Shown one piece after another: positions 7,380 through 26,228 of a stretch of 27,861 nt of DNA. The notes beneath the pieces are model-generated. The model was not told where the DNA came from, did no database searches, and saw nothing but the letters and a program-made list of their open reading frames with translations. Positions within the stretch are counted from its first letter, which is position 1; each line of letters begins with the position of its first letter. The position numbers were made by a program, and so were the translations under genes. Source of the DNA: a bacterium (GTDB lineage: Bacteria; NPL-UPA2; JAUVJM01); NCBI GenBank assembly GCA_030606215.1, contig JAUWGW010000023.1, forward strand, positions 1 through 27,861. The letters are read 5' to 3'.

Positions 7380-7735
7380 TGGTGGAGGCGGCGGGAATCG
7401 AACCCGCGTCCTGAGAGGTGTCAGCAAAAGTTTCTACATGCTTAGCTCAATGTTTATTTTTTCACTTCTTTCCGGCTCCAATGAGCGGGATCCGGGAGAA
7501 GCGTAGCTTGTATTTTCTCGCCTCACCTTCCCAAGCCAGAAAGTGAAGCCAGCCTGCTTAACCGTCACCCGGACACATCTCACAGGCAAGATGTGCGGGT
7601 GTGCCTGCTTTAATTAGCAAGCGTACGCAAACTGTTCGTTTGCACTTACTTTTTGTCAGGTGTTTTTCGAGGCCTCCTGACAACCTCGGCATGCTTCTTT
7701 TTGCTTCCATTCTCCAGTCGAAACCTATCGCCCCC
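7380..7735 (-). ncRNA. ssrA: Transfer-messenger RNA (tmRNA)
   Basis: One-piece tmRNA of about 356 nt that rescues stalled ribosomes together with SmpB. The tRNA-like ends are clear. The 5' GGGGGCG (7735-7729) pairs with the 3' CGCCTCC that precedes ACCA, giving a 7-bp acceptor stem with one G-U. A T-arm with GGTTCGATTCC lies just inside the 3' end, and the genomic CCA is at 7382-7380. The tag reading frame is GCA at 7643-7641 to TAA at 7616-7614 and encodes ANEQFAYAC. The resume codon GCA is preceded by GTAAGT, close to known resume contexts. A terminal Cys instead of the usual Ala-Ala is odd. The smpB gene is directly upstream on the same strand. Confidence 0.93.
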
Positions 7736-7826
7736 CTTTCTTCAATAGTCAGTGATTAGTAACATACACCCCCACCTTCTTCCTCCCCCATTAAGGAGGA
7801 GGATTAGGGCAAGTACATAGTGTTTA

Positions 7827-8285
7827 CTAGCCACGAGCCGCTCGTGGGCTGAGAGCCCTGTGTACTTCTATTTGAGCTTCACGCCTTTTGATGTCTTCAC
7901 GCTTATCATATTCTCTCTTCCCACGCGCAAGAGCTATCTCCACCTTTGCCCTTCCCCGCTTGAAATAAAGACAAAGCGGCACAAGAGTCAGTCCGCGCCC
8001 CGACATCTTCCCCATCAGCCTTTTTATCTCCACGCAATGGAGTAGCAACTTTCTGGTGCGTTTCGGGTCATGGTTGAAACGATTGCCGCATTCATATGGG
8101 GGTATGTGCATATTGTAGAGAAATGCCTCCTTACCGTCAATACTGGCAAAACTGTCCTGGAGGCTCGCCCTGCCATTTCTGAGAGATTTTACCTCAGTCC
8201 CCTGGAGGACAATACCCGCCTCATAGCTTTCCAGCAGACTAAAATCCCGTCTTGCTTTTCTATTTACCGCTATTGTCTTAGCCAT
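7827..8285 (-). CDS. smpB: SsrA-binding protein SmpB
   Basis: 152 aa, the normal length. SmpB is the OB-fold partner that brings tmRNA to stalled ribosomes. Family hallmarks run the whole length: GTEVKSLR, 'SLQDSFA', 'HIPPYECGNRFNHDPKRTRKLLLH', 'GLTLVPLCLYFKRGRAKVEIALARGK' written here in part, and the basic C-terminal tail from about residue 125 (KREYDKRE onward) that enters the empty mRNA channel. The tmRNA gene lies downstream on the same strand, the common smpB-ssrA arrangement. No SD precedes the ATG; a strong promoter ends 9 nt before it (see that entry). Stop codon is TAG. Confidence 0.97.
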   Translation of the reverse strand: MAKTIAVNRKARRDFSLLESYEAGIVLQGTEVKSLRNGRASLQDSFASIDGKEAFLYNMHIPPYECGNRFNHDPKRTRKLLLHCVEIKRLMGKMSGRGLTLVPLCLYFKRGRAKVEIALARGKREYDKREDIKRREAQIEVHRALSPRAARG

Positions 8286-8294
8286 TCTAAATCA

Positions 8295-8323
8295 TTTATA
8301 GCACATCCAGCGACTAATTTCAA
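8295..8323 (-). promoter_or_regulatory. smpB promoter, leaderless type
   Basis: On the minus strand TTGAAA (8318-8323), a 17-nt spacer and TATAAA (8295-8300) match sigma-70 at 5/6 and 5/6. The -10 ends 9 nt before the smpB ATG, leaving almost no leader and no SD. Five bases of the -35 lie in the left copy of the 64-bp direct repeat, so arrival of that repeat helped shape this promoter. Confidence 0.6.
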
Positions 8324-8382
8324 GTTTCTCAAAATCGGCCCTGTGATTCTGCTTGCCCAACTAAATGCAATGAAGATATAAT
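8319..8382 (+). repeat. 64-bp direct repeat, left copy, with sigma-70 promoter
   Basis: Identical over all 64 bases to 12751-12814. It ends in a perfect TATAAT (8377-8382), with TTGCCC 18 nt upstream (8353-8358). In the right copy this promoter points into the M28-AAC(3) gene; here it points into a scar made of fragments of that gene and then into the FG-GAP/LamG gene. Confidence 0.9.
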
Positions 8383-8446
8383 CAGCCTTCCAGAAAATGG
8401 AACATGGTGGATTAAAGGAAAGGATTGCTGAACGAGGGAAAGATTG
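8374..8446 (+). pseudogene. Mosaic scar of the M28-AAC(3) gene (collinear fragments)
   Basis: Directly after the left 64-bp repeat come three short stretches matching the gene at 12823-15537 in the same order. 8374-8391 equals 12984-13001 (18/18). 8386-8415 equals 13323-13349 apart from three extra A. 8417-8446 matches 15302-15331 at 27 of 30. The first two joins fall on shared words (agatataat, ccttcc), as expected for slippage deletions. I read this as a duplicate of the fusion gene reduced to about 75 bp. Its last piece supplies the TTG and 'LLNEGKI' that open the following reading frame. Confidence 0.7.
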
Positions 8447-9447
8447 ACGGAGACAACTTGAATGATGTGGTTTTCGCGAACCGGCAGCCTTACTATAGCA
8501 GTAACCTTTACTGGTATAAAAATCCCGCGGGAGCCGGCTCGTGGACAAGACATACAATTGACACCTTAAGCACTGAGCATCTTAAAGGTTCTCCTCCGGA
8601 AATAGCAGATATAGATTTGGATGGCAAACCTGATGTAATCTGCTACCGATACGACAGCTCAGCAACCTACTGGTATAAGAACCCTGGCGGCGGTTCAAGC
8701 TGGGCAAAAAACAAGATTTATGATGGCAACATAGGGGACCACAAGGGAGTAGGCGATGCAGACAATGATGGTGACCCGGATATAATTGTAGGTGGATACC
8801 TGTATGTAAATCCTAAGCATCTTGAAGCAGGTCTAAACGGATGCTGGTATCTTGATGAAGGAGAAAGAACAACAGCAGAAGATTCTTCCGGTTTCGATAA
8901 CGATGGAACCATCTACGGAGCTACCTGGACTACAGGCAAGGTTGGTTACGGTCTTGATTTTGACGGTGTGGATGACTACGTTGATTGCGGTAATGATGCG
9001 AGTTTGGATATTACTGATGCGATTACGATTGAAGCGTGGGTGAATTCAGACACGTTTACTCCCGACCTGGACTATCAAACTATTGCAGTAAAGAAAAATG
9101 CATATTATTTTCAAGTAAATAGTTCAGGGCGGCTAGTATATGGTGCGACAGCTTATGTGTCTTCTGAGTGGCCGATTCCCTCTCTCAATGAGTGGACACA
9201 TGTTGCTGTAACGGTTACTGGGACAACTGTTAAATTTTACATAAATGGAGATCTTGATTCCACAAAGAGTCAAGCATCGCCACAGACTTCTAATAATCAT
9301 TTAGGTATAGGAGCAAATTTGGATTCAAATGGGAATCCTGTCCTCAATTATGAAAGAAGGTTCGATGGCACGATCGATGAGGTCAGGATTTATGAGAGGG
9401 CTTTAACTCCAGATGAGGTTTATGAGCGCTATCTGGAAGGGTCGTAG
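8425..9447 (+). CDS. FG-GAP/VCBS + LamG-domain protein, 5'-truncated
   Basis: Open frame of 340 codons from TTG 8425. It contains acidic calcium-binding FG-GAP/VCBS-type repeats (DGDNLND, DIDLDGKPD, DADNDGDPD) over residues 1-125. A LamG/concanavalin-like jelly roll follows, about 135-330 ('GCWYLDEGE', 'DFDGVDDYVDCG', 'TIEAWVN', 'NEWTHVAVTVTG', 'FDGTIDEVRIYERAL'). Such proteins are normally exported surface or polysaccharide-binding proteins. Here there is no signal peptide, the propeller lacks its earlier blades, and the first eight codons come from the scar of the M28-AAC(3) gene. The native 5' end is therefore lost, and the gene is likely a remnant or an accidental fusion expressed from the repeat promoter. 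Stop codon is TAG. Confidence 0.7.
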   Translation: MLNEGKIDGDNLNDVVFANRQPYYSSNLYWYKNPAGAGSWTRHTIDTLSTEHLKGSPPEIADIDLDGKPDVICYRYDSSATYWYKNPGGGSSWAKNKIYDGNIGDHKGVGDADNDGDPDIIVGGYLYVNPKHLEAGLNGCWYLDEGERTTAEDSSGFDNDGTIYGATWTTGKVGYGLDFDGVDDYVDCGNDASLDITDAITIEAWVNSDTFTPDLDYQTIAVKKNAYYFQVNSSGRLVYGATAYVSSEWPIPSLNEWTHVAVTVTGTTVKFYINGDLDSTKSQASPQTSNNHLGIGANLDSNGNPVLNYERRFDGTIDEVRIYERALTPDEVYERYLEGS

Positions 9448-9456
9448 GTCTCAATT

Positions 9457-9477
9457 TTTAAGAGTACAGCTCTTAAA
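9457..9477 (+). terminator. Hairpin after the LamG gene, weak terminator candidate
   Basis: TTTAAGAG (9457-9464) and CTCTTAAA (9470-9477) form a perfect 8-bp stem with loop TACAG, 9 nt after the stop; ATTTTT follows shortly. The stem is AT-rich, so termination would be weak. Confidence 0.4.
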
Positions 9478-9516
9478 TAGGGATTTTTGCAACAGCTATT
9501 AGGAAAGGTTACAAAA

Positions 9517-10758
9517 ATGAAAAGATTTCTTATTATTAATTTGATTTTTCTTTTGTCAGGGAGTTTTCTCTATTCAGAGGAAGATATTTTTTCTGATAAT
9601 CCTCTTTTTCTCTGCCCATTCATTAAATCTCCTGTTATTGATGGAAGTCTTGATGACTCTACGTGGGGAGATGCATTCTCTGATGAACTTATGTTGAACA
9701 GAGGAAGAGGAAAGATTTCACAATTTACAAAAATATTTGTTGGGTGGAATAAAGAGAACCTCTACATTGCCTTTCACTGTCTTGAATCCAATATGGAAAG
9801 GATTATTGCTCAAAAGAGAGAGAGAGATTCTAAGGTTTACAGGGATGATTGTGTTGAGATTTTCCTTGACCCAGGGAGAGATGGACAACAGGTCCATCAC
9901 CTTATTACCAATACATTAGGCACAAAATTTGATGAATTGGAGAAAGGACAAAAGAGTAAAGAATGGAATCCAGAGTGGGAAGTAGCTATAAGGAAAGGAA
10001 AGGATTTCTGGAATGCTGAAGTATCTATCCCTTTTTCTTCATTAGGCATTTACCCTAAAAAAGGAGACTTGTGGGGAATGAACCTGTGCCGGGAGGAAAA
10101 ACCTTTGAGTGAGGATAGCGCCTGGTCACCAACAGAACGTGGTTTCGGAACCCCAGAGAAGTTTGGACTCTGTCTCTTTGGTGGGAAAAAGGCTCCAGTG
10201 ATAAAGCAGTTAACTCCTTTTAGAAATATTTTAAAAGAAGGCGCTTCTGAAGTGAAAGATTCTTTACTTTTTGAAGTTTCTGGTTATCGAAAAGGAAAAT
10301 TTATTTTGAAGGTCTGCTTTCTTTCTTTAAATGAAGGGAAGAAGGTGTTTAAGAAAGACTTCTTACTTAAAAAAAGGACCAAGATAAAGGTTGATTACCT
10401 TCTTAAAAAAGGAGGCTATTATCAGGCTTTTATTGAATTAGCAGATGATTCTTCTGAAGGGCCCCTCTTCCGTTCACGAAAATCTTATTTTATGGTTTGG
10501 CAAAGGGACCCACGAATAGTTTATCTGAAAGAACGGTTAGACTGGTGTAAGAAGGAGATCGAGAAACCGAAGAAGAAAGGAGTAAACATTTCTCTTTTAA
10601 AAGAGTATGAAAAGCTTTCTCATGAGATAGATAAACTATGCTTGGTAGAAAAACCAATTCATCTCTCTTCTTTTCAATGGGAAATACTTACTGAAGACAA
10701 GTTTTTAAAGAGAATAGAAGAACTCTACAAAAAAATCCAAAAAGAAAGGAGTAAATAA
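9517..10758 (+). CDS. Secreted CBM9-like (carbohydrate-binding) protein
   Basis: 413 aa from ATG 9517, chosen over an upstream in-frame codon because AGGAAAGG lies 8 nt before it and a clean signal peptide follows (residues 1-21, 'FLIINLIFLLSGSFLYS'). Residues 30-230 are a family 9 carbohydrate-binding-like domain: the opening IDGSLDDSTW, then 'FVGWNKENLYIAFHCLE', 'DDCVEIFLDPG', 'NAEVSIPFSSLGI' and 'WGMNLCREEK'. Residues 240-345 look like a beta-rich accessory domain and 345-413 like a charged helical tail. The protein most likely binds polysaccharide outside the cytoplasm; no catalytic domain is visible. Its AT-rich style and wording resemble the exported genes at 22180-27000 more than the flanking genes, which suggests a common functional set. 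Confidence 0.8.
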   Translation: MKRFLIINLIFLLSGSFLYSEEDIFSDNPLFLCPFIKSPVIDGSLDDSTWGDAFSDELMLNRGRGKISQFTKIFVGWNKENLYIAFHCLESNMERIIAQKRERDSKVYRDDCVEIFLDPGRDGQQVHHLITNTLGTKFDELEKGQKSKEWNPEWEVAIRKGKDFWNAEVSIPFSSLGIYPKKGDLWGMNLCREEKPLSEDSAWSPTERGFGTPEKFGLCLFGGKKAPVIKQLTPFRNILKEGASEVKDSLLFEVSGYRKGKFILKVCFLSLNEGKKVFKKDFLLKKRTKIKVDYLLKKGGYYQAFIELADDSSEGPLFRSRKSYFMVWQRDPRIVYLKERLDWCKKEIEKPKKKGVNISLLKEYEKLSHEIDKLCLVEKPIHLSSFQWEILTEDKFLKRIEELYKKIQKERSK

Positions 10759-10764
10759 CTATGC

Positions 10765-10840
10765 GTGCGCAGAGTAAAGCGTACCATGTCTTGTTGGTGA
10801 AAGTCCAACTTGGGCAAAGGTTGGCCACCAGCCCAACACC
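10765..10840 (+). mobile_element. Probable group II intron 5'-end remnant
   Basis: Begins GTGCGC, the usual 5' boundary style of bacterial group II introns. It carries stacked hairpins typical of domain I: GTTGG/CCAAC around TGAAAGT, then TTGGGC/GCCCAA enclosing GGT/ACC. No reverse transcriptase follows. Identification rests on recalled sequence style, not a covariance search. Confidence 0.45.
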
Positions 10841-11019
10841 AAATGCTCCTCCATAAGTCTTTTCCTCCCTACCTGTTTTCCATACTCTACGTTCTCTTCC
10901 AAAAGTGGTTGTCTGTCTCAATTTATATCTTCCAGTGCCGATATTAAAAACCGACACACTTTTTTAATGATAGGAAATGGCCTTTTCTTCACCCACGGCT
11001 TATGTCGAATAGACATCTT
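10841..11019. other. Gene-poor stretch between intron-like remnants
   Basis: No supportable gene. On the minus strand a short frame opens at ATG 11017, preceded by GGAGG, with about 32 codons of basic residues. It lies just inside the intron-like remnant at 11020-11110 and may be the damaged start of an intron-encoded protein. The family is not recognisable. Confidence 0.4.
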
Positions 11020-11110
11020 TTGTAACCTCCTTGGTTAGTTAATGCCCCTCACAGAACCGTGCTTCTGGATTTCCCAGACACGGATCTTCGGCAACACTTC
11101 CCTAATACGA
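11020..11110 (-). mobile_element. Probable group II intron internal remnant, opposite orientation
   Basis: On the minus strand a hairpin (CCGTG/CACGG enclosing TCTGG/CCAGA; plus positions 11057-11061, 11079-11083, 11064-11068, 11074-11078) is followed by TTCTGTGAGGGG. This is the layout seen before the reverse-transcriptase frame in many bacterial group II introns. It faces the opposite way to the 10765-10840 remnant, so the two are not one intact intron. Confidence 0.45.
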
Positions 11111-11211
11111 GGACAGAGTATACGTCAAGTGATATACCTGACGGGGAACCAAATTAATAAGCACAAAATAGGCCTCAAAAAGGGACGTTAAGAGAAAAAA
11201 TTGAAAAAAAC

Positions 11212-11273
11212 TTGACAGACATAAAAACCTAATGTATGCTTATTTCAGTAGGTGGACAAAAAGGTATACTGAA
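11212..11273 (+). promoter_or_regulatory. abiEi promoter and candidate operator
   Basis: A perfect -35 TTGACA (11212-11217), 17-nt spacer and TATGCT (11235-11240). This -10 covers the upstream in-frame ATG at 11236, so translation must begin later, at 11278. Inverted half-sites TTCAGTA (11244-11250) and TACTGAA (11267-11273), 16 nt apart, lie at and after the expected transcription start. AbiEi-type antitoxins are known to repress their own operon through inverted repeats. Confidence 0.6.
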
Positions 11274-11277
11274 TGAA

Positions 11278-11886
11278 ATGAACTTTAAAGACCTGTATAA
11301 AACCTTAGAAAAAAATAAATACTATGTCTTCTCGCACGGAGATATTTTATCATTTTATCCGGACGAAAAAAAACATAACCTTAAAAAGCTGATTTACAGG
11401 TGGAAAGAAAAAGGGTGGATTTATCCTTTAAAAAGAGGGTTGTATGAACTTACCTACCCCAAAGATTTTACCATTCCTGATATGTATATTGCCAATAAGC
11501 TCTATAGTCCTTCTTATGTGTCGTTAGAGACCGCTTTGTCCAATTACAGCATTATTCCAGAGGTATCAATGGCAGTAACCTCTATTACGACAAAACCCAC
11601 ACGAAGGTTTAAGAATAGACATGGCCTTTTTATCTATAGAACGGTTAAGTCAAATGCTTTTACCGGCTATTATGTGGAAAAACAGAGAGCCTTTAATATC
11701 CTTATTGCCGAACCGGAAAAGGCCCTGGTTGACTATTTATACTTTAAGACATATCGCAACAAGAGATTGAAACTTGAAGATGAAAGATTGGATAAGGATG
11801 TAGTCCTGCAGCTTAACAAGAGAAAATTAAACAGATATGCAAAATTGTATAATATCAATTTAAAGGAGTTTTATGCTTACCTATGA
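11278..11886 (+). CDS. abiEi: AbiEi-type antitoxin / transcriptional regulator
   Basis: 202 aa from ATG 11278; the 14 extra upstream codons fall inside the promoter. Type IV toxin-antitoxin antitoxin: an N-terminal winged helix (about residues 15-60, ending KGWIYPLKRGLYEL) and a C-terminal AbiEi domain with the typical YVSLETALSNYSIIPE segment (80-95) and 'EPEKALVDYLYF'. The family represses its own operon and counters the toxin without binding it. It overlaps abiEii by 14 nt, so the two are translationally coupled. Carried in the repeat-bracketed accessory block, consistent with horizontal acquisition. Confidence 0.87.
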   Translation: MNFKDLYKTLEKNKYYVFSHGDILSFYPDEKKHNLKKLIYRWKEKGWIYPLKRGLYELTYPKDFTIPDMYIANKLYSPSYVSLETALSNYSIIPEVSMAVTSITTKPTRRFKNRHGLFIYRTVKSNAFTGYYVEKQRAFNILIAEPEKALVDYLYFKTYRNKRLKLEDERLDKDVVLQLNKRKLNRYAKLYNINLKEFYAYL

Positions 11887-12706
11887 TTCTCTTATAGAAC
11901 AGGGGAAATCCAGACAGATGCCCCCCGCAAAAATTAGAGGTATTTTAAGAGAGTATCTTCAGATTCTTATTCTAAAGGAACTTTATAGAACTGAATCAGG
12001 AAAAAAGCTTTATTTTACCGGGGGAACCTATTTAAGATTGGCTCATAACCTCAAAAGATTTTCTGAAGACCTGGATTTCAACACAACTACTGTAACAAAG
12101 AAGAAATTTGAAGCTCTCCTGAAAAAGATAAAAAATGGGTTAGAAAAGGTCGGGATAGAGGTGCAGACAGAATTTGCTCATTGGTGTAATGTGTATGCTT
12201 CAAAACTAATCTTCCCCAAAGTAGAAAGAGCATACAATGTTATATCGAAGTATTCGAAAAAGAAGGGCATAATTATAAAGGTGGAGACCTATAGAGCAAA
12301 ATGGAAGATAAAAAATGAGACTCGCGTAATAACAGGTTTCGGTGAATTTTATCCCTGCATATGCACAGACAGAGGTATTTTATTTGCGGATAAGATAGAT
12401 GCGCTTACAAAAAAGAGCAGGGGAAGACATATCCATGATATTATCTTTATGCTTTCAAACAACTTCCCCATTGATAAAGGTTTCTTGTCTGTTCTTGGCA
12501 TAAAGAAAGATCCGCTGGAGGTTATACAGAACAGGATAAAAAGCTTTTCAAAAACCGAGTTAAAAAAACAGGCCGAAAACTTGAGACCTTTTCTTTTTGA
12601 TGAAAAGGAAGCAGATTTGGTTGTAAATGCTCATAATGTAATTCCGCCATTAGTAGAAAAATATGAATACAGTACGAACCAAGCCTCTTTGCGAGGGACT
12701 GGATGA
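11873..12706 (+). CDS. abiEii: AbiEii-type nucleotidyltransferase toxin
   Basis: 277 aa, with AAAGGAG just upstream of the ATG inside abiEi. This is a DNA polymerase beta-fold nucleotidyltransferase of the AbiEii/AbiGii family; related toxins modify tRNA ends or otherwise block growth and give abortive phage resistance. Catalytic features are intact: GGT at 50-52 with SEDLDF at 64-69 (D66, D68), the basic/acidic IKVE at 134-137, and the DKIDAL...RHIHD helix (172-188). The length is slightly short and the last ten residues (NQASLRGTG) look unlike the family, 44 bp before the right-hand 64-bp repeat, so the extreme C-terminus may have been altered by rearrangement. Predicted active. Confidence 0.87.
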   Translation: MLTYDSLIEQGKSRQMPPAKIRGILREYLQILILKELYRTESGKKLYFTGGTYLRLAHNLKRFSEDLDFNTTTVTKKKFEALLKKIKNGLEKVGIEVQTEFAHWCNVYASKLIFPKVERAYNVISKYSKKKGIIIKVETYRAKWKIKNETRVITGFGEFYPCICTDRGILFADKIDALTKKSRGRHIHDIIFMLSNNFPIDKGFLSVLGIKKDPLEVIQNRIKSFSKTELKKQAENLRPFLFDEKEADLVVNAHNVIPPLVEKYEYSTNQASLRGTG

Positions 12707-12750
12707 AATTGCATCATTGCCTCATATAAAAATCTATACAAAACTTAGGC

Positions 12751-12814
12751 TTCAAGTTTCTCAAAATCGGCCCTGTGATTCTGCTTGCCCAACTAAATGC
12801 AATGAAGATATAAT
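12751..12814 (+). repeat. 64-bp direct repeat, right copy: promoter of the M28-AAC(3) gene
   Basis: Identical to 8319-8382. TTGCCC (12785-12790), 18-nt spacer and consensus TATAAT (12809-12814). The ATG at 12823 lies 8 nt after the -10 with no SD, so the mRNA should begin at or next to the start codon. Both copies could also be read as a short peptide ending NAMKI and TAA, which I take as chance. Confidence 0.85.
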
Positions 12815-12822
12815 AAACCGCA

Positions 12823-15537
12823 ATGCTTGATTATTACAGAAAGATTTCTGAAGAATTTGACCTGACCGGTTATAAAAGAATAAGTACACAGACAGCCAAC
12901 TATGAGAGCTCTTTTTGCTACAAGGGGTTCCGTAAATCCGCACATTTTTGTGCAAAGGAATTAAAACGGGCAGGTGCCAGTGTAGATATAATCAGCCTTC
13001 CGGCAGACGGTAAAACAACTTTCCTGGACCATACACTCCCCGAAGCATTTGATGTAAGAGAAGCACATCTCCAGCTAATAGAACCGGAAAAAAGGCTTCT
13101 GGCAGATTTAAAGGAAGAACCTTTTTGTGTAGCCAACCGATGTGGAAACACTCCAGAAGGAGGAGTTGCAGCAGAAGTGATAGAGGAGCGGGATATAGAT
13201 AAAGAAGATATTAGAGGTAAAATTGTATTTACAAAGGATTTTCACCCCAGGGATATAAGAGCTAAGGTAGTGGAAAAAGGTGGTATCGGGATTATTTCTT
13301 CTTATTCTGAGGATTCGTCTGACCTTCCAGATGGAACATGGTGGATTAATGGCTGGGGTTCCGGACCCGGGTGGTATCACCTTAAAGAGGATAAAAAGAT
13401 ATTTTGTTTTTCAATATCTCCAGGGAAAGGAGAGTACCTGAAAAGTTTATTTCGAAAGGGGAGAAAAGTAAAGGTACACGCAGAAGTCTTAAGCAGAATC
13501 TACCAGGATAAGATTCATACTGTTAGTGGCCTTTTGCCGGGTAGAGACCAGAAGGAGATAATATTCTTAGCTCATCTGTATGAACCAATGCTTACAGACA
13601 ATGCAACAGGTGCCGCATCTCTTATTGAGATATGTCGTATTCTGAATACACTTACCAAGAAAGGCAAAATCCCTCCATTAAGAATAGGAATCAGATTTCT
13701 CCTGTCAATGGAAAGATACGGGTTTGCTGAATTCTTTGCCAGAGAGGAGAACAGAAAGAAGGTATTATGCGCTATTAATGTAGACAGTATCTCCTCGGAT
13801 CCAAAAAAGACCATACAGCCTGTTAATGTGAGAATTAACCCGATGAGCCATCCATTCTTCGGCGATTTTATCATGGAAAATCTGACGCACAGATACCTCT
13901 CACCTGCATATCCCCGGAAGGTTGAAAAAGGAAATTTCAGCGACGATACCTGGATTTGTGATACTACAATTGGCATCCCTGTAAACTGGTTGTGGTCGCA
14001 TCCAGGCAAGTATCATCATAATTCACTTGATGGAGAGGCAGTTGATTTTAATCTTGCCAGAAATATAACTTCCATTATTGCCACATATGCATATCTCTTG
14101 AGCACTGAGGAGAAGGAAGCAGAGCATTTTATAAGAGAGACTCTTATTCATGAGGCAAAAAAGAAGACGCTTGAGTTCTACCGGAACCTATCTCTTCAGA
14201 AGCTGAATTCAAACGACGCTTTAGCTAAAAGAGACTTCTTTGCTGGATATATTCAAAATAGCATCTCTTCTCTTGCCAGGCTCAGAGACGAGCCCGACTA
14301 CCGGATTAAGGTGGATAGTTTGAGAAAGGTAGTTGAAGATGAAGGAAGGAAAGAGTGGAAAAGGATAAAAGAGAAATTTGGACCTTCAAGAGAAAAACAA
14401 CTTAGCCCAAAAGATAAGATGGCTAAAAATATGATACAAAGGAGAAAAGCAGTAGGAGTTCCATTCTGCTTGGCTGATGTTCCTCCTTCTGAGAAGCAGC
14501 CCAGACCGGAAAAACTGGACTTAGTTTTGAACTGGATGGATGGGAAAAGAGATTTGCTGCAGACATTCGAGCTGGTAGAGTTGGAGAAAGAGGTGACATT
14601 AAGTGAAAAAGAAAGAGCAAAACTAGTAAGATACTTACTACTCCTTTCAAAACATGGTTACATATCCATTAATTACAGTATTAAACTTACGAAAAATGAC
14701 ATAAAAGAGGGGTTGAAACAGCTTGGTATAAATAAGGGGGATAGAATCATAGTGCATTCTTCTCTAGCGAGTCTCGGATATGTAAAAGGTGGACCAAAGA
14801 CTGTATGCCAGGCAATTATGGAATTGGTGGCAGATAAAGGCATTGTCATGATGCCCAGTTTCAACCATGAAAAGGCATTTGAAGAGGCAGGCTACTATTC
14901 TCCGCTTGAAACACGGACAACCAACGGTGCAATTCCCGATGCTTTCTGGAGGTTGAAAAATGTATTCCGTTCGCTACATCCAACACACGCTGTGGCTGTC
15001 TGGGGTAAGAACGCAAGAAATTATGTGAAGGACCACCACAAAGTTCTTACTATGGGAGAAGGCTCTCCATTACATTTGCTGGAGAAAAATGGTGGTAAGG
15101 TGGTTTTGATAGATGCTCCCGGTGCGAATACCTTTCATCATATCGTGGAGATGACAAACAATGTTCCATGTCTTGGAAAAAGGACAGATGAATTTCCCGT
15201 TAAACTGCCTTCAGGCGAGATTGTCAAATGCAGGGCATGGAGCTACAGAAATAGCAACTGTCCATGTGATGATACAGATGCCTATCGTGATATTATGAGG
15301 CGGAAAGGACTGCTGAACGAGGGGAAAATTGGAATGGCGGATGTTATCGTATTTAAAATGTCCGATTGCAGAAAAGTTATTGAAAAACTTATTAAAGGTA
15401 AAGCAAAAGGATTCGCAGGCTGTAAGAAGTGTAAGGTTAAACCATGGGTAAAACCGAATACAGTAGAAAGCGATTGGGATGATGAGAAAAAGAAAGTCAA
15501 ACCTACATCCCCTGCATTCACAGGAGATTGGCTCTAA
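12823..15537 (+). CDS. Fusion of M28/DUF4910-type aminopeptidase-like and AAC(3)-type acetyltransferase domains
   Basis: 904 aa with no signal peptide, so probably cytoplasmic. Residues 1-430 are an M28/DUF4910-like zinc peptidase with an inserted PA-like domain (about 100-185). The metal set is conserved: H251, D259 in TDNATG, E297, D321 in NVDS, H399 in HHNSLD. Residues 430-615 are helical linker. Residues 624-860 are an aminoglycoside 3-N-acetyltransferase (antibiotic_NAT) fold: GDRIIVHSSLASLG, VKGG, 'MPSFNHE', RSLHPTHAV with H719, and TFHHIVE near 770-776. In this family the acetyl-CoA-dependent enzymes acylate amines, not only antibiotics. The tail has CxxC at 'GCKKCK'. The pairing suggests removal of an aminoacyl or amide group followed by N-acylation of the freed amine, or the reverse; the substrate is unknown. 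A partial decayed copy lies at 8374-8446. Confidence 0.83.
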   Translation: MLDYYRKISEEFDLTGYKRISTQTANYESSFCYKGFRKSAHFCAKELKRAGASVDIISLPADGKTTFLDHTLPEAFDVREAHLQLIEPEKRLLADLKEEPFCVANRCGNTPEGGVAAEVIEERDIDKEDIRGKIVFTKDFHPRDIRAKVVEKGGIGIISSYSEDSSDLPDGTWWINGWGSGPGWYHLKEDKKIFCFSISPGKGEYLKSLFRKGRKVKVHAEVLSRIYQDKIHTVSGLLPGRDQKEIIFLAHLYEPMLTDNATGAASLIEICRILNTLTKKGKIPPLRIGIRFLLSMERYGFAEFFAREENRKKVLCAINVDSISSDPKKTIQPVNVRINPMSHPFFGDFIMENLTHRYLSPAYPRKVEKGNFSDDTWICDTTIGIPVNWLWSHPGKYHHNSLDGEAVDFNLARNITSIIATYAYLLSTEEKEAEHFIRETLIHEAKKKTLEFYRNLSLQKLNSNDALAKRDFFAGYIQNSISSLARLRDEPDYRIKVDSLRKVVEDEGRKEWKRIKEKFGPSREKQLSPKDKMAKNMIQRRKAVGVPFCLADVPPSEKQPRPEKLDLVLNWMDGKRDLLQTFELVELEKEVTLSEKERAKLVRYLLLLSKHGYISINYSIKLTKNDIKEGLKQLGINKGDRIIVHSSLASLGYVKGGPKTVCQAIMELVADKGIVMMPSFNHEKAFEEAGYYSPLETRTTNGAIPDAFWRLKNVFRSLHPTHAVAVWGKNARNYVKDHHKVLTMGEGSPLHLLEKNGGKVVLIDAPGANTFHHIVEMTNNVPCLGKRTDEFPVKLPSGEIVKCRAWSYRNSNCPCDDTDAYRDIMRRKGLLNEGKIGMADVIVFKMSDCRKVIEKLIKGKAKGFAGCKKCKVKPWVKPNTVESDWDDEKKKVKPTSPAFTGDWL

Positions 15538-15553
15538 TCTGGGTATTTGATTT

Positions 15554-15859
15554 TCAGACGACCTTTTCTTCTATCTTCTTTATTTTTTCGTACTGATCGC
15601 GTATGACGTTGCCAATGGTAGACTCGAGACTATCGAATCGTCGGTCTACCTTCTCAAATTGTCGGTCTACCTTCTCAAATCGTCGGTTTACCTCCTCAAA
15701 TTGCCTCTCGACAGAATTTCCTAGTTGATTTACTCCTTCTTTAATTGAACTGTGCTGCTCGGCAACCGTTTTAACCTGCTGTTCCATATGTTCCATCAGG
15801 ACTTTGTTATGACGCTTGATTTCTTCCAATACCCTGTCTTCTTTTTCCTTCTCGGGCAT
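15554..15859 (-). CDS. Small coiled-coil protein with heptad tandem repeat
   Basis: 101 aa from ATG 15859, chosen because GGAGG lies 5 nt upstream; the longer frame would begin before the promoter. It is charged and helical throughout. Residues 54-74 consist of three near-identical heptads (FEEVNRR, FEKVDRQ, FEKVDRR), giving a continuous coiled coil likely to self-associate. No catalytic motif or membrane segment. It resembles small hypothetical coiled-coil proteins common in mobile or accessory DNA; function unknown. It converges on the M28-AAC(3) gene with only 16 nt between stops. Confidence 0.65.
   Translation of the reverse strand: MPEKEKEDRVLEEIKRHNKVLMEHMEQQVKTVAEQHSSIKEGVNQLGNSVERQFEEVNRRFEKVDRQFEKVDRRFDSLESTIGNVIRDQYEKIKKIEEKVV
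15638..15700. repeat. 21-bp tandem repeat (3 units) inside the coiled-coil gene
   Basis: Three in-frame 21-bp units (15638, 15659, 15680), nearly identical at DNA level, each encoding one heptad. The low divergence implies recent expansion by slippage. Confidence 0.85.
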
Positions 15860-15871
15860 CTCATCCTCCAT

Positions 15872-15917
15872 CTGTAATTTACAGATTACAGTATATACCA
15901 AAACTATAAAAAATCAA
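15872..15917 (-). promoter_or_regulatory. Promoter and palindrome of the coiled-coil gene
   Basis: On the minus strand TTGATT (15912-15917), 16-nt spacer and TATACT (15890-15895). The 13-bp palindrome CTGTAATTTACAG (15872-15884) covers the expected start site, and a further TTACAG half-site lies at 15886-15891. This is a good operator candidate. The -35 lies just beyond the stop of the upstream GT2 gene. Confidence 0.5.
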
Positions 15918-16920: not shown

Positions 16921-17436
16921 TTACCTTCCCTCCAAAATTACCTGAATTTTTCTATGGGCGTCCTGGCTTACATCTTCTGCATTTTTCTTGCCCAACATTA
17001 AAAGATCAAACTCCATTCCCAAAATGTCTATCATCTGCTTCCAATTCTTGTTTACGTCCATGTCTACAGATTCTTCCAAAATCTCATAAAAGATTCTAAT
17101 ATTCTCCGGCTTCCCTTTATGGTTTGCTATCATATCTTCAGCAGCTTTCTTCGAAGCTGGTAACCCACCTATTTGACCAGCTACTCTCTTCTGCACTTCA
17201 TAGCTTAGATAGAATTTTAGAAATGTGCAGGCCGCCTCGCGTTTCTCTGGAACGATATTCTTTGTAATTACCAGAGCATTAGGGTCATAATAACAGGCAC
17301 GTGAAACTTTTTTTGGAGGAAAGACAACATCATAGTCCAAATCAGGAAATTTTTCATTAATAACATGAACACTATAATATATCCTCTGCATCATGGCAAT
17401 CTTGCCCATACCAACGTCAATTCTATTGTATCTTTC
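16921..17436 (-). pseudogene. Truncated ABC-transporter solute-binding protein (C-terminal remnant)
   Basis: Open frame of about 171 codons with the C-terminal half of a family 1-type sugar-binding protein: 'GKIAMMQRIYYSV', 'DYDVVFPPKK', 'NALVITKN', 'EKREAACTFLKFYLSYEVQKR' in part, and 'GGLPASKKAA'. Full proteins are about 400-450 aa with a signal peptide; here the whole N-terminal lobe and export signal are gone. The frame opens 7 nt after the stop of the isomerase gene, so a deletion removed the 5' part and joined the remnant to that gene. No permease or ATPase genes are present. It cannot bind or deliver sugar; any product would be a nonfunctional cytoplasmic fragment. Confidence 0.75.
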
Positions 17437-20757: not shown

Positions 20758-22125
20758 TCAAAGATACTTTCTAACCCCCGTATCCTCAAATTCGTAAGCT
20801 TCTTGAATATTGCCAGTTATAACTGGTCCATCGAAAAGGCTCTTTGGTGCCTTTTCAAGCAGGTGGACCACTACCTCCCTGTTTTCCTCAATGAGATTTA
20901 TCTTTTCGGAAGGGTCCTTTTCCAAATTGTAAAGCTCATGGCCTCCAGAAGGCCGGTAAATGAGACTCCATTTTTCATCTCTAATGACTCGGTGACCCTC
21001 TCCAAAGTATCCGCTGACTGCCACATCTCTGAGCTTTTCTCCTTTTAGCAAAGGCAATAGATTTTCCCCTCCCATATTAAAACTTTCCTTTCCTAAACCA
21101 AGAAGGGACAAAATGGTTGGTAAAATATCGCAGGTTTGGACAATTCCTTTAACCTTCATTGGCCGATAAATCTGTTCTGGCGGTTTAATTATTAGAGGAA
21201 AGTTTACTAACTCACTGTATAGATTATCAGAAGTTTTCATTATCTTGCCATGGTCTCCGTGGGGATGCCCATGGTCCGACAGAAGCACAATCAACGATGT
21301 TTCGTATAAATTTAACTCCTTGAGTTCATCTAAAAATTCACCTACCCACTTATCAACAAAACTTACCTCCCCAGCATATAAAGCTCTCACATTGTTTAAC
21401 TCTTCCTCGGTCATCCAGTCCACCGGGCCATACTTTGGATGGATGAGCTCTGGGCCTTTATAATTAGAGTCTTTATACATACTAAGAAATGGCTCGGGAG
21501 GAAACCACGGTTCATGCGGATCGAATGAATCTACCCATAAGAAGAACCGGCTATCCTTATTTCTCTTTATCCACTCAATCCCTCTGCTCATCACCTGCAC
21601 CGGGAAGTAGTCCTCTTCCTTCTTCCAATGCTCTATGTTTCTGAAATATTGGTCCAAGGAGCACCAGATATGATCCCCTTCCATGGCCGGTTTGGTAAAC
21701 CTCTTCATATCTTTGGAATGGTTGCCTGTTCTCCAGGCATCCGCTTCCTGACCTCTTATCCAATCAAAGGAAAAACCCCGGTGGAAATTCATACCTGGTT
21801 TAAAAAGATGGTAGGTATCCGCTATCAATCCACGTTTATACCCATACCTTTCTAAGATCTCAGAGATCACCACATCCTCCTTATTCAACGGTTGCCAGCC
21901 TCTATTGGTAAGGGTCTCATTTCCAGTGAATAATTGAGTTCTTATGGGGATAGTTGGCAGCCCCCCGGTAATCGCGTTCATAAATACCAGGCTATCCTTA
22001 GCCAGAGCATCTATATTTGGTGTCTTTACTACCTTACCGTTTATCCGGAATTCATTGTAGAAGCCAACGTGGTCCCTTCGTAAGCTATCTAACATTATCA
22101 CTATTAGATTTATCCCTTCTCCCAT
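20758..22125 (-). CDS. Sulfatase / alkaline-phosphatase-superfamily hydrolase with Thr at the catalytic site
   Basis: 455 aa behind a strong SD (GGGAGGGTGAA), no signal peptide. The superfamily fold is clear: the N-terminal metal site 'VIMLDSLRRDHVGFY' (D13), 'TPNIDALAKDS', 'DPHEPWFPP', and the metal/acid motif LSDHGHPHGDHGK (D284, H285). Ordinary sulfatases have C/S-x-P-x-R where Cys or Ser becomes formylglycine. Here the motif is T58-I-P60-I-R62 followed by TQLFTG, so no formylglycine can form. Thr is the nucleophile in the related nucleotide pyrophosphatase/phosphodiesterases, so a phosphodiesterase or phosphotransferase is a real alternative to a sulfatase. First gene of the cytoplasmic-looking sugar set, 54 nt after the exported set. 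Confidence 0.82.
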   Translation of the reverse strand: MGEGINLIVIMLDSLRRDHVGFYNEFRINGKVVKTPNIDALAKDSLVFMNAITGGLPTIPIRTQLFTGNETLTNRGWQPLNKEDVVISEILERYGYKRGLIADTYHLFKPGMNFHRGFSFDWIRGQEADAWRTGNHSKDMKRFTKPAMEGDHIWCSLDQYFRNIEHWKKEEDYFPVQVMSRGIEWIKRNKDSRFFLWVDSFDPHEPWFPPEPFLSMYKDSNYKGPELIHPKYGPVDWMTEEELNNVRALYAGEVSFVDKWVGEFLDELKELNLYETSLIVLLSDHGHPHGDHGKIMKTSDNLYSELVNFPLIIKPPEQIYRPMKVKGIVQTCDILPTILSLLGLGKESFNMGGENLLPLLKGEKLRDVAVSGYFGEGHRVIRDEKWSLIYRPSGGHELYNLEKDPSEKINLIEENREVVVHLLEKAPKSLFDGPVITGNIQEAYEFEDTGVRKYL

Positions 22126-22179
22126 TTCACCCTCCCTATCTCTTAAACCGTATACCTATCAAGCAAAAATTATAGCCAG

Positions 22180-23415
22180 CTAATTAATCATATCAGCAAC
22201 TAACTTGCAACCAATTATTTTGAATTCGTCTTTCCCAGAAGAAGTAATTAGTTCTCCTATAAGAAGATATTCTCCAGGAGAAAGATTATCTGGAAGGATA
22301 ATCTTTTTCTCTAATATCTTTCCTGGCCTGAGTTCAGACAGAAAAAGTTTTTTTATTTGATACTTTTTTTGGGGAGAGGAAAGAAATAGAATAAGGGTTA
22401 TATCCTTAATCTCTTTAGTAGGAGAAAGTTTGGCCTGGAAATAACCTTCCTTTTGCTCTACACTGATTCCCATCTCTCGATTAAGATAAGAAAGATTATC
22501 CATACCTGAAATAGTCACTAAAGAGATGGTAAAGGTTCTTTCCTCCTCTGGTTTAACTATAGGAAAAATAATCTCTTGAGTCATGGCAGGAATTTGCACC
22601 ATAACTGGCCCAGAGCTATCCCAGCTTTCTCCGCAGTTAGAATAAAGAACTGTTCTTTCTTTAGTTAGTAAGGTAGGAGAAATTACTTGGCCAACAATTA
22701 ATCTCTTCTTTTTGTCTATCAGGGCCCACCAGGGTTGAGAAGGAAGATAGAAGAGATTTGGCTCTTCCCTCACTCTTTTCTTTACTAAAAGACTTTCTTC
22801 CGGAACTATCTCTGTTTTATTATTAAGAAATCTCCTGGAAGTTTTCCTTAAAGGAAAGATAATATAATCATCATACTTAAAGTCTCCTCCTACCTGAACC
22901 ATGGAATGCATCCAGTAGCTATAAGAGCTTTCTGATTGATTGTTAATACTAATCTCTATCTTAAGTTCTGTGCTTTTATCCTTTAGACTGACTGTTCTCT
23001 CTAACCTCACTCCCCCTTTTTCCCCAGGGGGGATAAGTGCAACTGCTACTTCTCTGCCTTCTTTCTTTAGAACTTTAGCTTCATATTTAATCTTACTCTT
23101 CTGTAAGCCTGTCTCCCAGCACCAATCCTCATATCCGCCAAAGTTGGTTTCGGCTACTACTGCTCTTGCCAGCTCCAAAAGAGGGTTAGTACTAATTCTC
23201 TGTTCCTGGTAAGGTAGAAAGTAATTGCTTCCGATAGGCTTATAGATATACTCTGCTATTCGGCCATTAGAATCAGGAATAATAGTCGCTTTAATATACT
23301 CATTTTCTAAAATTAAGGATTCATAACCAAAATATTCTCCTTTTTTGATGGTTGCTGAGTTAACCGAAGAAGAGAAAAGAAGTAAAATAATAAAGAGAGT
23401 TAATTTTTTTTCCAT
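22180..23415 (-). CDS. Exported protein with mutarotase-like/DUF5107-type beta domain
   Basis: 411 aa with a signal peptide (residues 1-20, 'LTLFIILLLFSSSVNSA'). Residues 25-270 have the look of a galactose-mutarotase-like beta-sandwich: 'LENEYIKATIIPDSNGRIAEYIYKP' at the start, then 'VRLERTVSLKDKSTELKIEISINNQSE' in part. Residues 290-411 look like an Ig-like beta domain. Such folds bind or epimerise sugars or form accessory domains of glycosidases; no catalytic residues can be assigned. The start overlaps the end of the 942-aa gene by 16 nt, so the two are translationally coupled and probably act together outside the cytoplasm. Confidence 0.6.
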   Translation of the reverse strand: MEKKLTLFIILLLFSSSVNSATIKKGEYFGYESLILENEYIKATIIPDSNGRIAEYIYKPIGSNYFLPYQEQRISTNPLLELARAVVAETNFGGYEDWCWETGLQKSKIKYEAKVLKKEGREVAVALIPPGEKGGVRLERTVSLKDKSTELKIEISINNQSESSYSYWMHSMVQVGGDFKYDDYIIFPLRKTSRRFLNNKTEIVPEESLLVKKRVREEPNLFYLPSQPWWALIDKKKRLIVGQVISPTLLTKERTVLYSNCGESWDSSGPVMVQIPAMTQEIIFPIVKPEEERTFTISLVTISGMDNLSYLNREMGISVEQKEGYFQAKLSPTKEIKDITLILFLSSPQKKYQIKKLFLSELRPGKILEKKIILPDNLSPGEYLLIGELITSSGKDEFKIIGCKLVADMIN

Positions 23416-26228
23416 GGGAAATATCCCTCTTTTTCTATTCCTAATGCCTTAGCATCCGGACTTGCCTTAAAATAGGATGGTGGGATTTTGCGGTAGAAAC
23501 CGGAGAAACCAGTAAAGTAACCATAAAAGGCATACTCTTTATCTAAAGCCTCCAGTAATAAAAGAGTTGTTTCTTTAAGAGAATGAAGATCTTTAGCAGC
23601 AATAATCAAGTTTTCTCCCTCTTTATAGATGAAACCTTTCTTTTCTTCTGGAAGTTTATTGATTAAAGGGTTGCTCTCTGGTGTTCCTATGATGATGAAA
23701 GAACTATATCCTTCCTTCTCTTTTCCCACCTGTATATCCTTTTTCAATGGAGAGCGAAGAGCATATTGATGATAAAAGGAAAAATAGTTTGAAACCCAGG
23801 AAGCAAAAACTTCTTCCTCTGTGGCAGCATCTTTCGCAATTAGTATCTTACAGTTAGGTTCTTTATTCTTGATAAATGGAAATTCAAGGAGAGAGGTCAT
23901 ATTTTTTATCTCAATCTCCGGAGAAAGATTAAGGATTAGGTTATTCTTTCCTTTACTTAACCTTATCTTAGAGACTACAGAATTATCATTCTCAAAAAAT
24001 TTACATCTCTGGCCATTAAGAAGAAGGGACTCAGGATATGTTCCTTTAGGAAGCCAGAGATAGATACTACCAGAAAAATTCTTGCCGGAAATTATCTCTA
24101 TATCTAGAAAGCCCTTTTCTCCCGTGGTGAGATTGATTTTAGAAGAAAAGGAAAGATTATGTCCTTTATCTATACCAGCTATTGTTCTTAAAATAAGAGG
24201 GGTTCTGGCTTTGATATCTTCTGAAATAATAGTATCTTTTCCTTTTATCTGAGAAGTTATCTCTTTTTCTCCTTCATATTCAGCCAGGACATAAGAGAAA
24301 GGACCAAGATAAGAATTATTTAGTTTAATTTCGGTTTGGATATCCTTCAGGGTGCAATTCCCTAAAACTAAACAACTGCCTAATTCCTTCCCATATCTAC
24401 TCAGCCAGAGTCTCTTATCTGCCTTAAAACCAGGAGCCGGTTCCCAACCCAAATCAGTTAAATCTATCAAAATAGGCATATAATGAAGAACCTTAGGAAC
24501 TCCTAAGGAATAAGTAGGCGGTGGATAACCACAGAGATAAAGTGAATACAGAATAGTATAGTCAATCAGAGCAGAGAAGGATTTCCTTAGCTCCTCTGGG
24601 GAAAAAGACTTCCAGTCGGGGATACTCCAACCCCTCCACCAGGTAACAGGTTTCTTTCCTAACCAGAGTCTTACATGGATAGGGTCATACCCATAGAGAT
24701 GGAATTGAGGGCTTGCTTCATAGATAGCACTATCGGCTGTCAGCCAGGCGTAATAGCCTTGTGCTCCATCAAGGTTAACAATAATTCCCATCCGAAGGCC
24801 ATCTCTATAGAAGGAATGAACTTCTTTAGCGACCATAGCTATTGCTGTCCCTACAGTTGCATAAACGCCTTTTCCTTTCTCATAAGCTTTACCTGGTGAG
24901 CCCTCTGTTCCTTTACCAAAGTGACGAATACCTCTTCCTGCTCCAGTATCAAAAGCAAAACCAGAGATCGGCCAATTCTTGGCAATCTTCTCGAAATCCT
25001 TTATTGTCTTTTCTCCAAAGGAATTCCTGTAAGGATAGACAAACAAAGTGGGTTGATTGCCAAAAGCATGAGACTTACGCCATATTTTTACTTTTCCATC
25101 CTTAGGTACAAGAATAGCCTCAGGGAAATATTTTTTGGCCAATTCCTCTTCACAAGCAATAAAGCCTGAATAGGCCATTGGAGCAATATTATAAATTCTT
25201 CCTTTCTCTAATCGGAAAAACATCTCCTCTATCCAATTTTCAGGATTTGGCCATGTTGGGGGAGTTTTACCAACCTTCCTAAACTTCCCTAACCATTTTT
25301 TGGTAAGTTCACTTGGCCAATAATCTCCCTGTCTGGCTCCTGAGGCAGCACCATAGCACCAGTCACATCCAGCGCCTGCTTTTCTTAAAAGCTCAAAAGT
25401 ATTGACCCCACCTGAACGTTTGCCAAAGTGGCTACTAAAATTCCAGTAAAGATGCGAAGCACAGGGCTTCTTTATTCTGGGGTCTATCCCTGGGGTAGCA
25501 ACAAAGATATCAGGAAAACAGTCATAATATACCTGAACTGCATCCAAGTAGCCGAAGTTATTCTCAAAAGGGAATAGAATAAACTCAATCTCATCTTTAC
25601 CTTCAGGGTCAATCACCATTCTGGTGGCAAAAAACACTTGATGGGTAGAGGGGTTAAGTTCTACTTTCAGATAACTTCTTAATTGATGAGGTTCAATACC
25701 TAAGGCTAAACCATTTTTCTGATAGATTGCTGCCAAGGGAAACATTCCTCTTAGGTCATCTCTACTGAGAATCTTATCAGGAGAACTATATATTTGGAAA
25801 CCATCCCAATAACTATAGTCTCTCTTAAAAGAATAAGGAAGAGATAGACCCACCTCTATCCACATCTCTTCTTTTGATAAGTTATTTAAGGTAATCTTAT
25901 AAGAGATGTAATTATTCTTTGGAGTAACAAGATGCGTAGCCCGAAGAGATGGCTTCTCTATGAAGGAGTGTTTATAAATAAAGGCTTCTCTTTCTCTCTG
26001 AAGGCAAACTTCACTCTCTTTAAGATAGAATTCCTTTTCCCCATCAAAGAAAGTTACTTTCCCTTTTCCTGGGAACGGAGAACCAAAAAGAGAGAGTTTC
26101 TCTATAGAGACTTCCTCTAATTCTAAACTAAAGGAGAGATTCTCTATAGAAATAAAGGCAGCATTTGAAGAGAAGCAAGAAAGAAAAAGAAAACAAAATG
26201 AGAATAACAATAATAGACTATTCCTCAT
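23400..26228 (-). CDS. Large exported putative glycoside hydrolase
   Basis: 942 aa with a signal peptide (residues 1-23, 'LLLLFSFCFLFLSCFSSNA'). Residues 25-240 are beta-rich, and 255-580 read as a TIM barrel with strand-end acids ('SGFAFDTGAGRG', 'MGIIVNLDGAQGYYAW', 'TWWRGW'). Residues 620-760 are beta-rich. Residues 800-905 form an alpha/beta domain ('CKILIAKDAATEEEVFASWVSNYF', 'FIIIGTPESNPLINKL', 'GENLIIAAKD') resembling the N-terminal accessory domains of GH67/GH20-type enzymes or S-layer-associated modules. I cannot name the GH family. The Asp in FAFDTGAG and the Asp in VNLDG are candidate catalytic residues. It overlaps both neighbours (11 nt and 16 nt). An exported enzyme working on the polysaccharide bound by the LamG partner is the simplest reading. 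Confidence 0.55.
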   Translation of the reverse strand: MRNSLLLLFSFCFLFLSCFSSNAAFISIENLSFSLELEEVSIEKLSLFGSPFPGKGKVTFFDGEKEFYLKESEVCLQREREAFIYKHSFIEKPSLRATHLVTPKNNYISYKITLNNLSKEEMWIEVGLSLPYSFKRDYSYWDGFQIYSSPDKILSRDDLRGMFPLAAIYQKNGLALGIEPHQLRSYLKVELNPSTHQVFFATRMVIDPEGKDEIEFILFPFENNFGYLDAVQVYYDCFPDIFVATPGIDPRIKKPCASHLYWNFSSHFGKRSGGVNTFELLRKAGAGCDWCYGAASGARQGDYWPSELTKKWLGKFRKVGKTPPTWPNPENWIEEMFFRLEKGRIYNIAPMAYSGFIACEEELAKKYFPEAILVPKDGKVKIWRKSHAFGNQPTLFVYPYRNSFGEKTIKDFEKIAKNWPISGFAFDTGAGRGIRHFGKGTEGSPGKAYEKGKGVYATVGTAIAMVAKEVHSFYRDGLRMGIIVNLDGAQGYYAWLTADSAIYEASPQFHLYGYDPIHVRLWLGKKPVTWWRGWSIPDWKSFSPEELRKSFSALIDYTILYSLYLCGYPPPTYSLGVPKVLHYMPILIDLTDLGWEPAPGFKADKRLWLSRYGKELGSCLVLGNCTLKDIQTEIKLNNSYLGPFSYVLAEYEGEKEITSQIKGKDTIISEDIKARTPLILRTIAGIDKGHNLSFSSKINLTTGEKGFLDIEIISGKNFSGSIYLWLPKGTYPESLLLNGQRCKFFENDNSVVSKIRLSKGKNNLILNLSPEIEIKNMTSLLEFPFIKNKEPNCKILIAKDAATEEEVFASWVSNYFSFYHQYALRSPLKKDIQVGKEKEGYSSFIIIGTPESNPLINKLPEEKKGFIYKEGENLIIAAKDLHSLKETTLLLLEALDKEYAFYGYFTGFSGFYRKIPPSYFKASPDAKALGIEKEGYFPWKKN

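Follow-up and report, generated by a model that had tools for sequence, protein, structure and literature searches.

Deletions between short direct repeats have long been known. In bacteria, the erosion of pseudogenes by deletion is an established rule (PMC5447742; PMC2916853), and in Salmonella, Rickettsia and others a redundant or broken gene is shortened by deletions under a deletional bias (PMC2916853; PMC5447742). For MMBIR, complex junctions have been described in which discontinuous duplication is mixed with deletion (PMC2621351). We analysed a stretch of 27,861 nucleotides from an uncultured bacterium (hereafter the window), in which positions 8319–8446 form a scar. We interpret this scar, with a probability of about 0.7, as what is left of a collapsed second copy of an M28-AAC(3) fusion gene that was shortened mainly by deletions between short words.

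The locus is consistent with the described eroding pseudogenes in that the gene concerned appears to have been reduced by deletions. Unlike those pseudogenes, the remnant, at 128 bp, still resolves into four collinear pieces, since its parent gene lies 4.4 kb away. Replication slippage or alternative end joining can delete DNA between short direct repeats, and the scar agrees with this in that joins fall on common words of 9 and of 6 bases, one copy of each being retained; here, however, three joins are stacked in one remnant and the third has 2 common bases. The discontinuous collinear copies and the microhomology also resemble the junctions of serial replication slippage or MMBIR (PMC2621351). 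A single recent event of this kind would probably not leave differences such as those in the scar, which are unevenly distributed, are synonymous in the last piece and include an insertion.

Composition of the scar and its joins

The scar (128 bases) is accounted for entirely by four collinear pieces, all drawn from the M28-AAC(3) gene with its promoter (12751–15331). The pieces and their sources are as follows:

12751–12814, plus strand: second copy of the 64-base block, the promoter region of the intact gene (64/64)
12823–15537, plus strand: intact M28-AAC(3) fusion gene, 904 aa (Pfam Peptidase_M28 1.6e-6, Antibiotic_NAT 1.1e-42)
8319–8382, plus strand: scar piece 0, copy of 12751–12814, 64/64, match not extendable; carries a promoter-like site at 8353–8382
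8374–8391, plus strand: scar piece 1, copy of 12984–13001, 18/18; codons for DIISLP
8386–8416, plus strand: scar piece 2, copy of 13323–13349/50, 27/27 with AAA inserted; codons for LPDGTWWIN
8417–8446, plus strand: scar piece 3, copy of 15302–15331, 27/30; codons for KGLLNEGKI

Pairwise comparison of the scar region with the intact locus reproduced all four pieces in identical order and on the identical strand. The original prediction had described a 64/64 match to the promoter region of the intact gene, which is exact (8319–8382 = 12751–12814), followed by three short matches in the same order (18/18; 27 bases plus three inserted A; 27/30), which are right to the base. The uninterrupted exact cores of pieces 2 and 3 span 19 bases (8397–8415 = 13331–13349) and 13 bases (8426–8438 = 15311–15323), respectively.

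Searching positions 8300–8460 against the whole 1.52 Mb genome at E ≤ 0.001 returned four matches, one of them the query and the other three in the M28-AAC(3) locus; the 18-base piece 1 was also found at this locus once the cut-off was loosened to E ≤ 1. For the 64 bases that follow the promoter block, the collinear chain score was 49. This compares with a mean of 13.3 and a maximum of 34 in 400 dinucleotide shuffles, a maximum of 31 in 400 other 64-mers from the window, and 9 for the reverse complement of the same 64 bases. Chance similarity is therefore ruled out, as the score exceeds all 800 controls, and the collinearity is beyond chance as had been claimed. A repeated mobile or regulatory element is likewise ruled out, because the genome contains just two instances of the 64-base block and viral contigs none. 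An Rfam search at the scar gave no structured-RNA match.

With the intact gene taken as a stand-in for the ancestor, the three joins imply deletions of 178, 327 and 1951 bp. Join 1, between pieces 0 and 1, lies on the 9-base common word AGATATAAT, and join 2, between pieces 1 and 2, on the 6-base common word CCTTCC. Among random joins in the M28-AAC(3) gene, at least 9 common bases occur at a frequency of 6e-5 and at least 6 at 0.0024, so both of these words, already singled out in the original prediction, are far above chance. Join 3, between pieces 2 and 3, has a common word of only 2 bases (GG), a degree of sharing found at a frequency of 0.17 among random joins, and one extra base change alongside. 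The proposal that a duplicated gene was eroded by microhomology deletions is thus the best-supported reading, given the first two joins, the derived state of the scar wherever polarity can be assigned and the truncation of its neighbour, except at join 3, where 2 bp of microhomology are meaningless.

The joins differ in their effect on the reading frame. At join 1 the start codon (ATG) was lost and the complete TATAAT was kept, because TATAAT lies within both copies of the 9-base word. Join 2 is in frame and fuses DIISLP to ENGTWWIKG at the common LP codons. Join 3 shifts the frame, as 1951 bp is not divisible by 3, and there is a stop codon in all three frames between 8379 and 8430.

Flanks of the scar and the retained promoter motif

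The left flank of the scar carries the following features:

7380–7735, minus strand: tmRNA (ssrA; Rfam RF00023, 190.9 bits)
7827–8285, minus strand: smpB (Pfam SmpB 4.3e-59; 74–75% identical in the nearest relative, G001)
8295–8323, minus strand: smpB promoter-like site, a motif match (TTGAAA-17-TATAAA, 9 nt before ATG)

The tmRNA and smpB genes adjoin on the minus strand (7380–8285), with smpB upstream. G001, the only other genome of the same family, has the same layout (TTGAAA-17-TAGAAA-9-ATG); beyond its smpB lies, by eye, a MATE-like transporter ORF, and we found no conserved gene order with the window. Five of the six bases of the smpB −35 box fall within the 64-base block, and the left edge of the scar is localised inside the box, with which it has the 5-base word TTCAA in common. 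Either the join used TTCAA as a common word, and microhomology there would fit the other joins, or the 64-base block is native beside smpB and the copy at 12751 is a daughter carrying five smpB −35 bases. We slightly prefer the latter because it needs no coincidence; the scar may mark the older site and the intact copy may be its daughter. The −10 box stands 9 nt from the ATG in smpB and 8 nt in M28-AAC(3), and both messages may be leaderless.

On the right, piece 3 is directly followed by the remainder of a second gene:

8425–9447, plus strand: FG-GAP/LamG ORF (Pfam FG-GAP_3 and Laminin_G_3), fused in frame to piece 3

This ORF comprises 340 codons and is open throughout. Its best relative in the searched genomes (L061 in G023, about 53%) has a 411-residue frame with several more repeats and, by eye, an apparent signal peptide at its N terminus. 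The ORF in the window aligns only to the last part of this relative, and about 290 N-terminal residues are absent exactly at the scar; judged by this alignment, it is probably what remains, after loss of the 5' end, of a gene for a secreted lectin-like protein. Both genes keep their reading frame across the join (KGLLNEGKI, then DGDNLNDVV). Based on the missing residues and the in-frame join, the last deletion probably took both the 3' end of the M28-AAC(3) copy and the 5' part of the FG-GAP/LamG gene.

Our promoter scan identified TTGCCC-18-TATAAT (8353–8382) intact in the scar, where it now precedes the truncated FG-GAP/LamG ORF, and join 3 placed AGGA 5 bases before the TTG start at 8425. 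The original prediction held that a working promoter was left facing another gene. The motif does face the FG-GAP/LamG ORF; however, that gene is a remnant without a signal peptide, and the promoter is a motif match only. Expression of the fused ORF is possible, and its product would be without an export signal. The intact motif, the AGGA and the open frame might point to capture of the promoter by a new working gene starting at 8425. We consider this very unlikely, since the predicted product has neither the signal peptide nor the upstream repeats found in its homologue and would probably not be exported, and since the motif was already in the duplicated DNA, so that its presence needs no selection. 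The retained motif probably has no selected role.

The intact gene, its relatives and the divergence of the scar

The M28-AAC(3) gene has a single intact copy in its own genome (one match). Its AAC(3)-like domain falls far short of the NCBIfam score cut-offs that mark true aminoglycoside acetyltransferases, and in G005 the M28 and AAC(3) parts match separate contigs. Among the nine genomes of the phylum, a very thin sample with one other member of the family, we identified neither a longer or intact second copy nor an intermediate, and G001 is without the M28-AAC(3) gene altogether. Loci with relatives at about 51% identity contain single copies only, and conserved gene order was not found among them; a scan of viral contigs with the protein gave no match.

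Directly upstream of the intact gene, an AbiEi/AbiEii-like pair (11236–12706) occupies a stretch of lower G+C, and another AbiEii relative (37%) is present on contig C31 of the same genome. Downstream, three 21-base tandem units (15633–15695) are found inside a coiled-coil-like ORF (15554–15901). By eye, a short ORF at 16921–17409 is similar to a sugar-binding transport protein over the C-terminal part of the latter alone; the ORF had no NCBIfam match and is possibly another gene remnant.

Comparison with three of the relatives (L025, L026 and L027; about 51% identity) gives the differences between the scar and the intact gene a polarity. Because all three read LPDGTWWING, the scar is, by this alignment, the derived sequence at both the AAA insertion and the N-to-K change. 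The residues encoded by pieces 1 and 3 are present in the gene of the window and absent from these relatives; therefore, the duplication belongs to this lineage. A distant paralogue as the source of the scar is ruled out, as both pieces match residues specific to the M28-AAC(3) gene found here.

Piece 3 differs at three positions, each time by a synonymous transition. Only 23 of the 90 possible changes in this piece are synonymous (12 of 30 among transitions), and three synonymous changes out of three would arise by chance with a probability of about 0.02 if any substitution is allowed and about 0.06 for transitions. This is weak evidence that the copy may have evolved as a gene before its decay. 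The differences are also unevenly placed along the scar: the first 73 bases show none against five events in the last 55 (p ~0.013, hand calculation), with four substitutions and one insertion in pieces 2 and 3 and none in pieces 0 and 1. This pattern could be due to chance, to gene conversion or to constraint acting on the promoter block. Two differences arose on the side of the scar, and those in the last block, three in number, are synonymous; on this ground we prefer a genuine gene copy, diverging before its decay or in the course of it, to a misassembly or an insertion templated in one step.

Origin of the scar and its meaning

Based on these comparisons, we propose that a once full-length second M28-AAC(3) copy with its promoter stood divergent from smpB. 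Nearly the whole copy would then have been lost in successive steps of about 178, 327 and 1951 bp, the deletions at two of these steps falling between direct repeats (9 and 6 bases). One more deletion would have joined the rest of its 3' part, in frame, to the interior of the FG-GAP/LamG gene, whose start was thereby lost. These deletions would have been made by replication slippage or end joining. We infer the former full-length copy, the one-after-another deletions and their cause, and, with less confidence, that the site beside smpB is the older and the copy at 12751 its daughter. Three observations count against this reading: the genomes compared show no intact second copy or intermediate, join 3 has 2 common bases, and the clustering of differences towards the right of the scar calls for constraint, conversion or chance.

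A single complex event would yield the same arrangement, though with pieces of equal age. In this case, a stalled or broken fork near smpB would have been repaired from the M28-AAC(3) gene 4.4 kb away via short common words, by serial replication slippage or MMBIR-like template switching, and a full second copy would never have existed. The collinear forward jumps, the microhomology at the joins and the TTCAA word common to the left edge and the conserved smpB −35 box fit such an event. We nevertheless regard it as rather unlikely: the pieces would start identical, yet substitutions and the insertion are confined to pieces 2 and 3, piece 3 has synonymous changes only, which suggests that it evolved as part of a gene, and at least four template changes would be needed within 130 bases. 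That one-step serial template switching provides here a clear natural MMBIR-like example in an uncultured bacterium is distinctly doubtful. An assembly or library chimera, with joins absent from the organism, might be suspected in a draft genome of 34 contigs, where a 64-base repeat can mislead short-k-mer assemblers, but appears highly improbable. The usual word lengths of assemblers far exceed 9 bases, and the inner joins share 9, 6 and 2 bases, far under such lengths. Also, the five differences in the pieces do not occur in the only other copy, and at the outer edges the conserved −35 box of smpB and an FG-GAP ORF in frame are preserved.

A variant of the main reading, whose probability overlaps with it, specifies where the duplication came from. 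Here, a circular DNA with an allele of M28-AAC(3), FG-GAP/LamG, CBM9 and AbiEi/AbiEii would have recombined into the chromosomal gene by Campbell-type insertion, and the copy on the smpB side would then have decayed. In line with this, the 64-base direct repeats bracket 8319–12750 (4.4 kb), the AbiE-like pair lies inside this block, G+C is 36–38% across 9001–13000, compared with about 44% for most of the preceding genes, and among the genomes searched none from elsewhere in the phylum matched the FG-GAP part. However, no integrase, replication or other mobility gene was seen, similarly low G+C also occurs at 22001–24000 in the window, and AbiEii and CBM9 relatives are present in other members of the phylum. 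We consider such a source unlikely.

The mechanism proposed for the scar is already known, and the scar represents a well-preserved example of an ordinary bacterial process that leaves our knowledge of the deletion mechanism unchanged. Read as the remnant of a second M28-AAC(3) copy, it shows base by base how a redundant copy vanishes in a small bacterial genome, including the words that were used, and that the same decay can cut one neighbour, the FG-GAP/LamG gene, while sparing the smpB promoter on the opposite side.
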